From Streptococcus cristatus (lineage in GTDB: Bacteria; Bacillota; Bacilli; Lactobacillales; Streptococcaceae): a stretch of 64,000 nt of DNA. The notes beneath the pieces were generated by a model. The model was not told where the DNA came from. It ran no database searches and saw only the letters and a program-made list of their open reading frames with translations. How positions within the stretch are numbered: position 1 is the first letter of the stretch; each line of letters starts with the position of its first letter. The stretch lies in contig NZ_KQ969062.1 in assembly GCF_001578775.1 (NCBI RefSeq), positions 1,479,933 through 1,543,932 of the forward strand, given 5' to 3'. The position numbers and the translations under genes were made by a program. This document shows, in pieces, positions 1-7,602 of the stretch.

Positions 1-3000
1 TTGCTCGACTACCTGAATCTTAACACCTTCGTCTGGAGTCGTTTTGTGAACTGGCGGTGTAGCTGGTGTATCTTCTAAACTATTGAGATAAGTTGTAAAT
101 TCTGCCAAGCGAGTCGGAGTTAACAAGTGGTTATTTGTCACGTAAGCAGCCACCTGCAAGAACTCTTCTACTGCTTCACGATTAGCCTGACTTGTCAACG
201 TCTTAGCACGCGCAAGAGCCTTATCATAAGCACTTGTGTCCAGAGCAGCCTCGCTTGTTGTTGGTAGATTAAAGACTAGTTCCGCCGCTGATTGGTATTC
301 ATTTTCGCTATCGCCATAAGTCTGAGTACCTGTCAAGACAATCTTCTTAGCCTTGATAACCCGACCAAAGTCAATAGTTTTAGTTGCTGTATTATTTGGC
401 CAATTATTGGCTGAGAAACGGTGTTCTTGACCTGCTTCATCCGTTACCACCAGAGTTACATTTTTGAGATTACCATTTGATCCTGAAGAACGTGGTACAT
501 AAGTCAAACCTGTCAAATCAGTTGGTTCTCTCAAGACCATAGTAGCCGGTTTATTAGCACCACCACCAGACCACGGTGTATGCCACAGGCTAGAGCGGTT
601 ACCATCAAAGGCTTTAGCTAACTCTTCTCCTGGCTGTGCAGGTGCTTCCAGAGATTCAAAGTCTGCTGCTTTGAGGGAAGTCTTCTTCTCTACCAAGGCA
701 GCCTTGAGGTGATCCACTGCAGCGATTGCCTGTCTAGCAGCATCAACTGAGATGTCATCATCCTGCTGAGTCAAATTATAAACCGCATCTTTCAACGCAT
801 TCATAGACTCAGTAGTGTAATTCGTTCTGGCAACTAGTGGCAGGTAGTTGTTCACTGCTTCGTCAATCAGCATCTTACCTGTCAGCTCGACTTCTTCAAT
901 TTGTAGACGATCCATTACAAAGTCATTGTAGCCACGGAAGTTTGCATCTCCGCCTGCATCACCATTTGTATTCCCACCTCTAGCAGTAGAATAGATACCA
1001 ATCCAAGTATTGCCATCTGGCGCTCCCGTAACGAGGAAGGTCGCTCTTTTGGCTTTTTGAGAGCCTTTCCAAGTGTTTGGTAGCTCATGCACTTGTGCAT
1101 TGCCCAAATCACTAGTCCATTGGTTACCTGCTTGCTTCCAAGTTACTTCACCATTGCCGCTGACAAAGGCGTAAGTGCCATCAGAGCCCGCTTCGTAGTC
1201 AAAGGTTACTCGATAAGTCTTACCTGCTTCAAAGCGGAAGTTTTGCGGAATAGTTTGGTAAACCATGCGTTGACGGCTAACTAAACCATTGGTCTTGAGT
1301 GACCAGTCGCCCTCGATAACATCATCAATCTTCTTACCATTCCAGCCACGTTGTGTATATGGTGCGTTCTTTTCTGATAAGTGAGTCCGATTGTCCTCAA
1401 CACCTTCGATACCACCGATAACAAATGGGAAGATCCCTTGACCGACATTTTCAAAGTTCTGTTTGAAGACACCTTTTTGGTTATCATGACCGCCGGCATA
1501 CATTGTAGAATTATTCTCAAAGACTCGAATTTCATCAAAGTAAGTTGCTTTTTCACCTGCTTCACGGCTCAGGGTCAGAGTCACATTGGACACGTCATCA
1601 CCTGTCGTGAAGTAAACATACATATTTTGGAAATAGCTGGTGTTGTCCACTGTCGCATTGCTACGATTTGTATTGTGAGCATATGCCTTTACATAGTTTT
1701 GAGCAATAGATTTATTAGTATAGTTGGTAATCGTCTTGTCACCTGATTGGACTGTGATACTTGCCTTAGCATCACTTCTATTATCGACTCCGACATAAGC
1801 AGCATACTTAGTATTTGGCTTGAGACCCGTTAATTTCTGAGTCAGAGTCACAGTACTTGTATTGTTTTGAATACGGAGCATATCATTGGCACCCTGTGAC
1901 TTGACAATTTCAGCCTTAGACTTGTCGCCTGTAATTGTCCAATGATCCAGCTTACCACTGTTGAAGCCTTGATCATAGATATGCATTCCTTCGCTCCAAG
2001 ACATTTCCTTGTTGACCTGTCTTGTACGATAGAGAACGTATGGCTGATTTGCCAAAAGATCCAGCGTCAGCTGATTATTCGTCACTGTCAGCTCTTGCTC
2101 TTCAACCTTACCTTGGTCGGTCAGCTTATAGAGGTAAACCTTATCATTCCAATCACTCGGCAGTGTCCAAGTTGTCTGGCCTGCTTTTGTATTGTAATAA
2201 TACATCTTCTCTTGAGCTTTTTCCAGCTTATTACCGTTGGCATCCCAATTCCATGGTACTAGATAAGCTGAGCCGTCTTGAATCACGCGACCATTAAGCG
2301 TAACTGTTCTCTCACGGTAGCCTGGATTTGCCACATCGTTTGATTTACGGCGAATAGTAACTTGATTGTTGTCCTTGTCTGTTAGACCGATTTCCATTTC
2401 TGGTGTCCACTTGTAGCTGCCGCCATTATCATTCATGGTAACCGGATTACCATTCTTCCATGTTGCGACAGTGAAGTGTTGGAAATACTTGGTCATGACA
2501 TCATGAGCAAAGAGGTTGGTCACGTAGCCATTGTAGTCACTCCGTCCTTGCCAGCCCTCAAAATCCTTCATGCTGTAACCACCAAGCAGCGGATAGTTGG
2601 CTGCGCCGCCATAGGACGGATAGTCACCAATCCAAGAATCTTTTTGGTGGTTGCGGATAAAGCGGACAATGCTGCTGTTAATCCCCTTGTTGGTATAGCC
2701 ACCATAGGTCAAGTCAGCTGCCCAGTGCTGGAAGGTAGAGTCGTACTCACCACCATGGCCCCACTCAATCGCAAAGCGCCAGCCTTGTTGGTTGATTTCT
2801 TTTGCCAAGACGTGAGTTGCCCAAGCACCATTATCACCTGACTGACCATTACCCCAGACATCAACATAGATAAAGTCTAATCCTTCGCCAAGTTTTTCTT
2901 TCAAATCTTGCCAGCGTTTGAGTCGACCATGAGCGAGGTCATAGGCAGCATCAATATTGATACCTTGGTCCAGCCAGTTCCAGCCATAGCTATAGCTACC

Positions 3001-6000: not shown

Positions 6001-7602
6001 AATCAGGCGGTCTCCGTCATAAAGGTCACCTTTATCTCGATAGTCTTTTTCCTGTGGATTGACCACTACACGATAGGTTGTCGCTACACCGTTTGCATCA
6101 TAGACTGTTCCATTTTCACGAATTGTATATTTTTGACCATTTTCGTGATAAAGAATCTGATAAACCTTGCCATCAATCGTTGTATAGGCTTCTTTGTTTT
6201 TAGCAGGCAGGTCAAAAACAGCCCGCCCTTCTGTAAACATATCATAGATGGCATGAATGGTTCCGTCTTTATCCTGAACCATAGCCACATCAATCGTTAC
6301 AGGAGAGCCCTGATTCGGATCCGTTGCTTTGGGATTATTGCGCAAATTGACAATCGTCTTTTCTGGCCCCCAAGTCTGGCCGCCATCTGTACTACGGCGA
6401 ATAACTGTGCCGATATCTCCCCAGTCTGACGCATGCAAGCGGCGCTGATCCGCAGCTGCAATCAAGGTGCCTTTCTGAGTCTTTAACAAGGCTGGGATTC
6501 GATAGCTTTTAATTCCTTGACTATTAGCCTGACCGCCAGCTCCACTCTCAAATACATCTGCCTTTTCACTCAGGGAGGCACCAGGAGCTAGCTGTCCTTC
6601 GAGTTCTTTCCGTTTTAAAATTTGGCTACGCTGAGCTACTTCTTCTGGCGAAAGAGCGCGGTCATAAATAGTTAGATTTCGAACGGCAAACGTTCCTGGC
6701 CAATGGTTTTGCTTACCACGCACTGTAGCACCCAGCTGCATGTTGGTCAAATCCGGCATGTCACTCAGGAATTTCCCTGACTGATAGCTGGTTCTTGATA
6801 GAACCCCATTGACATAGAGGCGCACGCGACCCTCTGGCGAATCTGGTTTTAGTCTTTCTACTGTATAGGTGATGGAGTTCCATTGACCCGCAGTTACTTT
6901 CAAAGGGGCAGTGTTATAATTTTCATAGAATTGCTGCCCATTGCGATCACGACCTTCGACAACTGCTGTTCCATTATTGACCGCAAGAGTAAAGTATTCG
7001 TTGACATGCGTGGAGCTAGAAGCAGAGAATACACTATAAAACTTTGGTGAGTTTGCATCTGGCTTAAACTCCAAATGAACCGTTGCATTCTTTAATTTTT
7101 TTACTTTATCTAGCTCGCTGGATAGATCCTCTTTGGCGTGATCTGTTTTGTTAATCGTAATATCTTCTTTTTCCAAGACAGGCTTGACATTCTTTAAAGA
7201 ACGGGAATAATAGTCTCTTTCAACCGTTTCTTCTGTCTCAGCAGTTGCATCAGAAGGTTTTTCTAAAGTGGTACCTGTATCTGTTGATGGAGATACGGGT
7301 GTAGCTACATTTTCTGTAGATACTGGTGCAGTAGCAGTTGCTGCTGCAGGCTTATCCTCGTTTTCTACTTTCCCATTTACCTCAGAAGATGTTGTCTCTC
7401 CCGTAACTTCAGTAGCAGGAGGTGCCACACTTGGTTGAGATACCGCAACTACTCCTGCTGGGCTAGTTGTTGTATCTGCTAGACTGTCAGCCGATACTTG
7501 ATTGACCCCAAACAAGATTGCTCCGATTATAACAGAGCAAACACCTAAAGTTAGCTTGCGAATCCCAAACTTACATCTTTTATCAAATAAATCTCTATCC
7601 AT
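1..7602 (-). CDS. Sialidase (GH33)-endo-alpha-N-acetylgalactosaminidase (GH101) fusion, surface protein, C-terminus outside window
   Basis: One reading frame is open from the ATG at 7602 to the window edge (over 2,530 codons). The N-terminus is a YSIRK-like signal (FGIRKLTLG, then a hydrophobic stretch), a Pro/Thr/Glu-rich linker, and a CBM40/laminin-G-like module at about 190-345. The sialidase domain follows: RIP Arg R368, Asp D393, Glu E666, Arg R682 and R740, Tyr Y771, with Asp boxes such as STDGGQTW. These spacings match pneumococcal NanA (R347, D372, E647, R663, R721, Y752). From about residue 935 the sequence resembles pneumococcal GH101 (W939 region onward). Candidate nucleophile D1581 (YVDVWGNG) and acid/base E1613 (AIEWGHGG) are 32 residues apart, as in SpGH101 D764/E796. 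A C-terminal F5/8C (CBM32-like) domain and helical linker follow. An LPXTG anchor is expected just beyond position 1 but not seen. Predicted role: desialylate O-glycans, then release Gal-beta-1,3-GalNAc. Confidence 0.93.

Follow-up and report, generated by a model that had tools for sequence, protein, structure and literature searches.

The window, meaning the whole stretch of DNA analysed, is 64,000 bp long and belongs to Streptococcus cristatus (G000:C1:1479933-1543932), the genome of which is a draft of 2.2 Mb in 44 contigs. Gene 1 lies at the left edge of the window on the minus strand. It starts with ATG at position 7602 and has 2534 codons without a stop up to the edge. The predicted product is a surface protein with a NanA-type sialidase (GH33) and an SpGH101-type endo-alpha-N-acetylgalactosaminidase (GH101) in one frame, and its features are collected in Table 1. 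The signal is of the YSIRK type (PF04650 with 38.4 bits against a cut-off of 20), and the domain at residues 142-329 is called CBM40-like by its likeness to NanA. The promoter-like site ahead of the gene is only suggestive of a real promoter; three such sites were found against 2.5 expected from shuffles, which is about equal frequency.

Table 1. Features of gene 1 and of the region ahead of it, in positions of the window
Feature	Residues (aa)	Position (nt)	Strand	Basis or remark
Gene 1: YSIRK-LamG-GH33-GH101-F5/8-(G5)n surface protein	first 2534	1..7602	-	continues past left window edge
Signal peptide region with YSIRK motif	1-39	7486..7602	-	PF04650 at 7-32, TIGR01168 at 1-39
Sialidase N-terminal LamG/CBM40-like domain	142-329	6616..7179	-	PF02973, 191.5 bits
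GH33 NanA-type catalytic region	341-841	5080..6582	-	alignment to 2vvz
GH33 residues	D393; E666; Y771	6424-6426; 5605-5607; 5290-5292	-	alignment to NanA
Low-confidence, probably flexible tether between enzymes	912-934	4801..4869	-	AlphaFold predicted local distance difference test (pLDDT) <50
GH101_N domain	942-1123	4234..4779	-	PF17995
Galactose-mutarotase-like domain of GH101 (Gal_mutarotas_3)	1151-1403	3394..4152	-	PF18080
GH101 catalytic domain (Glyco_hydro_101)	1404-1694	2521..3393	-	PF12905, 405.7 bits (cut-off 25); 3ecq alignment
GH101 residues	D1581; E1613	2860-2862; 2764-2766	-	alignment to 3ecq
GH101 beta-sandwich, domain 5, GalBD	1700-2224	931..2505	-	PF17451, PF21466, PF17974
F5/8 type C domain	2324-2442	277..633	-	PF00754
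Probable start of G5-repeat stalk		1..48	-	cut by N run left of window; G5 repeats come next in relative L007
Promoter-like site TTGACA-17-TATATT, TG before second hexamer		7707..7735	-	about 105 nt ahead of ATG

The GH33 half aligned to NanA structures, among them 2vvz with 725 bits (E 4.6e-217, query 12-512 of 580), and a BNR_2 Pfam match covers residues 556-779. Residues R368, R682, R740, D393, E666, and Y771 are identical to those of NanA. By the roles of these residues in NanA, we take D393 to be the acid/base, E666 and Y771 the nucleophile pair, and the three arginines the arginine triad. As far as its sequence tells, this half is a complete NanA-type sialidase, with hydrolysis of sialosides as the predicted activity. 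The GH101 half aligned to 3ecq (query 4-1298 of 1299) and to the 5a55-5a5a structure series. Its motifs predict a complete SpGH101-type endo-alpha-N-acetylgalactosaminidase that would release the core-1 disaccharide. D1581 (YVDVW) and E1613 (AIEWGH), presumably nucleophile and acid/base as in SpGH101, are the same in 3ecq and in all five copies of the fusion, namely the one in the window and four in the relatives described below. R368, D393, and E666, which were checked one by one in the four relatives, are also kept in all five. An earlier note on this DNA had claimed that both catalytic modules are complete in one uninterrupted surface-protein frame, and Pfam, NCBIfam, and structure alignments agree on this. 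The residues named there, D393, E666, D1581, and E1613, proved correct, and R368, R682, R740, and Y771 are present too. The NCBIfam model endo_SpGH101 (NF040533) matched with 2970.2 bits against a cut-off of 2900, with the best stretch at residues 932-2512. Since this whole-protein model is above its cut-off, automatic annotation would probably name gene 1 only an endo-alpha-N-acetylgalactosaminidase, hiding the sialidase.

A pattern scan covered 84,980 species, each represented by a single genome, and 79 distinct GH101 loci (L006-L084) were kept from 166 relatives. The full-length homologues with the same GH33-GH101 order, which the earlier note had proposed to seek, were found in four of these loci (L006-L009), which come from S. 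sinensis HKU4 and from three strains with the label S. cristatus (BCC41, A53, and BCC51). Their identity to the window is 98-99% in the pattern scan. The other 75 loci had no GH33 detected in the GH101 frame (E <= 1e-15), with the frame open at the locus start in three of them (L026, L050, and L059). Within a Streptococcus set of 284 genomes, 94 had GH101, 129 had GH33 (E <= 1e-20), and 86 had both. When the same contig, place, and frame length were demanded for both families, five of the 86 had the pair in one frame among the matches listed (G000, G020, G021, G023, and G198), and the remaining 81 had no pair sharing place and frame among those matches. The frames of G020, G021, G023, and G198 are 3089, 3184, 2621, and 2587 long and evidently belong to the genomes of L008, L007, L009, and L006, respectively, so the total is five fusion genomes and not nine. 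In each of them, the fused sialidase is the sole match counted for the GH33 query (E <= 1e-20). When 398 genomes drawn evenly from the phylum were searched by profile, the matches were the source genome and a single weak one covering part of the sialidase half; few streptococci were drawn and the positive control was reported by the GH33 half only, hence this result carries little weight.

The genome is a draft with N runs beside the gene, which could speak for a chimera, created in assembly, of a nanA gene and a GH101 gene that are in fact separate. A frameshift or assembly join near 4700-5000, a possibility raised in the earlier note, was looked for and not found. The sequence is unbroken there, and the same junction is present in the same continuous frame in the four other assemblies, with 96-98% identity over the linker. 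The probability of a chimera is therefore negligible, and the GH33-GH101 gene is, on these sequence comparisons, real, complete, conserved, and rare. As a separate observation, Streptococcus sp. DD10 (L036:8921-15915) has GH101 split over two overlapping frames of 629 and 1716 aa, and the GH101 segment of the larger frame is 94% identical to that of the window. This gene is broken, or the assembly is in error.

Homology to NanA-type proteins ends at about residue 904 and homology to SpGH101 begins at about residue 932. The fusion would thus have brought together a NanA gene lacking its anchor and a GH101 gene lacking its front. That front holds a trypsin-like domain in 39 of the 79 loci; the domain is absent from the four fusion loci, where LamG-GH33 stands in its place. 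At L010:9245-9859, this trypsin-like serine protease domain lies ahead of GH101, and its His-Asp-Ser motifs are intact in seven aligned sequences. Its best matches among solved structures are 9ect (LPXTG protein) and a part of IgA1 protease 7uvk. Such a chain combines a protease with an O-glycanase, a pairing that none of the papers retrieved on it seemed to treat.

Synonymous divergence (dS) from S. sinensis is about 0.25 for the fusion gene. For other genes, it is 0.68 (endA), 0.67 (murA), 0.41 (atpC), 0.46 (dapB), 0.54 (DegV-like), 0.32 (cca-like), 0.24 (partial atpD), and 0.76 (a short open reading frame of doubtful reality); these gene names are our own, read from the sequences and not derived from a database. 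The two neighbouring two-enzyme genes described below have dS of 0.70 (GH20-GH84) and 0.38 (GH29-GH2). From the three cristatus-labelled strains, dS is 0.03-0.04 for the GH33 half, 0.04-0.07 for the GH101 half, 0.19-0.26 for the adjacent endA and murA, 0.06-0.09 for atpC, and 0.11-0.13 for atpD. The 10 kb before the fusion gene of S. sinensis hold dapB- and cca-like genes and no match to endA or murA, and dapB is about 0.4 Mb from the fusion gene in the source genome. The dS of the fusion gene, lower than in most of the other genes, and its different place on the S. sinensis chromosome suggest lateral movement as one unit, in a comparison with a small gene sample and with codon bias outside the model.

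In the comparison with S. sinensis, the ratio of nonsynonymous to synonymous divergence (dN/dS) shows purifying selection on both halves, with values of 0.05 (GH33) and 0.02 (GH101) where dS is near 0.25. The first 141 residues of the protein are far less constrained (0.63). These values bear on the explanation that one catalytic half is mainly a lectin, serving as an adhesin, with the other half as the working enzyme. The CBM40 domain of NanA is reported to promote adhesion (PMC4546082), and the POGases of family GH101 bind glycans (PMC11861894). The strong selection against amino-acid change in both catalytic domains and the catalytic residues kept in all five copies make a mainly lectin half very improbable.

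The left edge of the window coincides with the end of an N run of 1155 bases, and three further N runs lie between this edge and the end of the third gene of the neighbourhood. The frames of L007 (3184 aa) and L008 (3089 aa), both counted from the preceding stop, close with G5 repeats, LPSTG, a hydrophobic stretch, and KKKEN. The frames of L006 and L009 leave their contigs before any anchor. The LPXTG motif for which the earlier note pointed to the left of the window is thus present as LPSTG in two relatives, and in the source copy the place is masked by the N run.

Two further genes are found to the left on the same strand. The first (G000:C1:1469220-1478777) encodes a GH29 fucosidase, F5/8, Calx-beta, GH2, Ig-like, BgaA-like CBM, and G5 domains, and its GH2 block scores under the NCBIfam cut-offs for named galactosidases. 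It is closed with its own signal and LPSTG in L123, in a frame of 3643 aa. The second (G000:C1:~1458570-1467823) has GH20 and GH84 with F5/8 domains and G5 repeats. Its enzyme domains were confirmed by Pfam in the relative L113, GH84 also by PF07555 in the source genome, and in L098 and L113 the gene carries a signal and an LPSTG of its own. The neighbourhood is most likely composed of three adjacent genes, each predicted to encode a two-enzyme surface protein, with the gene borders of the source genome inside the N runs. Assembly breaks at these places would be accounted for by signal regions that are nearly identical and by the G5 repeats. The window could also hold the front of one giant six-enzyme protein (GH33-GH101-GH29-GH2-GH20-GH84), as the frame of the scaffold is open through the first two N runs for 6577 codons and the GH29-GH2 and GH20-GH84 blocks come next on the same strand. 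Openness through Ns is meaningless, though, and the length of the second N run (1396) is not divisible by three. This candidate was ruled out by the closed genes in relatives, where GH33-GH101 ends with LPSTG and a stop (L007 and L008) and the two other genes have signals and anchors of their own, and its probability is accordingly minute.

The GH101 half has GWNWLDQ (from residue 1540) and a second motif (from residue 1933), which are one residue off the classical O-glycanase motifs, and it does not have the POGase motifs AWGWMNQ and YSAWAWV/IEI in a comparison made without Motif-2. Judged by these motifs, the substrate of this half should be core 1 from which sialic acid has already been removed. 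Most of the O-glycanases known so far act strictly on bare core 1, and until the POGases were described, efficient cleavage of sialylated O-glycans was not known for any natural enzyme (PMC11861894). NanE and GH35 families are present in all five fusion genomes. An aga-type cluster of the source genome (G000:C4:48967-56853), about 15 kb from nanE, is read as GH35, IIB, IIC, IID, IIA, agaS, and galM in transcription order with an adjoining GntR-type gene, and the pneumococcal aga operon has the same content and order (PMC5018945). The products have a likely, still predicted, inward route by way of this cluster and the nanE pathway.

The junction was modelled in AlphaFold on residues 330-1130 (801 residues, from GH33 to GH101_N) with a 25-row alignment. 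The model has a mean pLDDT of 84.5 and a predicted template modelling score (pTM) of 0.63, and the other four models have a mean pLDDT of 74.5-77.3. The sialidase and GH101_N parts are confident, and pLDDT is below 50 at model residues 583-605 (residues 912-934 of the protein) and higher on both sides. Folded halves and a tether are seen in the model, and the relative placement of the active sites is not given by it. The tether is probably a flexible leash that holds both enzymes on one anchored stalk.

As a whole, these data are best explained, with a probability of about 0.78, by a gene 1 product that is a wall-anchored bifunctional host-glycan hydrolase. On sialyl-T and related mucin O-glycans, the sialidase would first take off the alpha-linked sialic acid. 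The O-glycanase tethered to it would then release intact Gal-beta-1,3-GalNAc from the now unsialylated core 1. The disaccharide would be imported and split by the aga-type system (GH35, phosphotransferase system, agaS) encoded elsewhere in the genome, and the freed sialic acid would enter the nanE pathway. Selection would have preserved the joined gene, which probably passed as a whole from one related species to another. Cooperation of the two enzymes by nearness on dense mucin glycans is possible.

Several points weigh against this explanation. The enzymatic activities and the intramolecular cooperation are predictions, plausible as they are. The anchor of the source-genome copy falls in the N run and is not readable, and the low-confidence tether indicates no fixed channel between the active sites. 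Few changes separate the gene from its copies in the three cristatus-labelled strains, and the dN/dS is looser there (0.09-0.13 for GH33, 0.03-0.13 for GH101, and 0.21-0.42 for GH101_N). Every NCBIfam match in the aga-type cluster is below its cut-off, and two genes, IIB and the GntR-type one, were assigned by eye, so that the sugar handled by this cluster is not proven. The partial atpD has a dS from S. sinensis as low as the fusion gene, and the argument for lateral transfer thus rests on the other genes.

Joining of host-glycan enzymes recurs in the genus, and GH33-GH101 is one member of this set. Six long GH33 frames were scanned with Pfam; they were chosen for length and are no random sample, so no frequency can be inferred from them. 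Five fusions of a sialidase with another enzyme were recorded: GH29-GH33 with a trypsin-like domain (L099, G209; frame cut by the extent of the stretch examined), GDSL-GH33 (L100, G053), GH31-GH33 (L101, G160), GH2-GH20-GH33 (L102, G275), and GH20-GH33 (L103, G036). They resemble gene 1 in having GH33 joined to another enzyme in a long frame; they differ in the partners, which are GH29, GDSL esterase, GH31, GH2-GH20, and GH20, and in the place of GH33 after the partner. Two of them, L100 and L101, gave a match to the YSIRK signal. The idea of the earlier note that the domain order reflects the reaction order is not supported, as GH33 follows its partner in all five.

Other long frames were also seen. 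A 2449-aa frame (L105:3842-11188, G097) carries a sialidase together with mucin-binding domains (Muc_B2 and MucBP_2) and eight stretches of G5, with no second enzyme. In S. oralis DD24 (L023:8870-19294 and L111:3225-13649), a single frame of 3475 aa encodes GH101 and GH84 and lacks the GH20 enzyme; a deletion may have joined two neighbouring genes there. A frame of 4476 aa (L106:639-14066, G001) combines GH2, GH84, and GH20 with F5/8 and G5 domains.

Ordinary module shuffling is the most serious alternative, and its probability falls a little short of even. By this explanation, both enzymes work independently, and the gain, if any, is the shared promoter, signal, stalk, and anchor. It overlaps with the bifunctional hydrolase favoured above and denies only the cooperation. 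The variety of pairings held by the genus (GH29-GH33, GH20-GH33, GH2-GH20-GH33, GH31-GH33, GDSL-GH33, GH101-GH84, and GH2-GH84-GH20) speaks for it, as do the GH20-GH84 gene beside GH101 in 32 of the 79 loci, the repeated G5 stalks and near-identical signal regions as material for recombination, and the tether, which appears unstructured in the model. The partners joined here, on the other hand, would act successively on the same glycan, and the joined gene was kept and apparently spread between species; neither is proof of cooperation. A more far-reaching version is doubtful: that gene 1 encodes a single-chain stripper with cooperating sialidase and O-glycanase, is one of three neighbouring two-enzyme proteins forming a wall-bound disassembly line for mucin glycans, and was spread laterally because joining pays.

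A sialidase and an O-glycanase are normally paired in the laboratory for the release of O-glycans. A natural chain with both predicted activities makes it straightforward to ask whether mucin is deglycosylated faster when sequential glycosidases are joined, and together with the other fusions it indicates that streptococcal surface glycosidases were recombined in several pairings. No description of a GH33-GH101 protein was found in the literature searched, where subscription journals are thinly covered, and the available parts of PMC6722419 (sialidases) and PMC7846122 (cristatus and GH101) make no mention of this fusion. The earlier note had left room for an already well-known architecture; this applies to proteins with a sialidase and a second glycosidase, which are known (SiaBb3, PMC12856340), and not, within that literature, to GH33-GH101.

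Pneumococcal-type NanA (GH33) and SpGH101 (Eng) are separate proteins with the same motifs and residues as the respective halves, and Eng is given as LPXTG-anchored (PMC9937060). In the fusion, both halves lie in a single chain with a common signal and, in the two closed relatives, a common anchor; the anchor that belonged to NanA has been lost, as has the trypsin-like domain found before GH101 in 39 of the 79 GH101 loci. POGases of Actinomycetota, compared by their description only, are also GH101 enzymes, handle sialyl core 1, and have 'sialidase-like domains' in some C-terminal regions (PMC11861894). They differ by removing sialylated core 1 directly and by other motifs, and their extra domains are called carbohydrate-binding (PMC11861894). 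SiaBb3 of Bifidobacterium bifidum (GH33-GH123) is described as removing sialic acid first and then a second sugar (PMC12856340), and among the cases found it is the closest demonstrated one of the sequential-enzyme principle. As predicted for gene 1, a sialidase and a second glycosidase are in one chain, and the second step needs the first. SiaBb3 differs in that its GH123 is a beta-N-acetylgalactosaminidase acting on the Sda antigen and not an endo-acting O-glycanase, in its GH33, which is described as atypical, and in its origin from another phylum; no GH123 domain was detected beside GH33 among the Pfam matches of gene 1 (E <= 0.001) or in its closed relative L007 (E <= 1e-6). GH33-GH101 is a new pairing of well-known enzymes, the principle of which has precedents.

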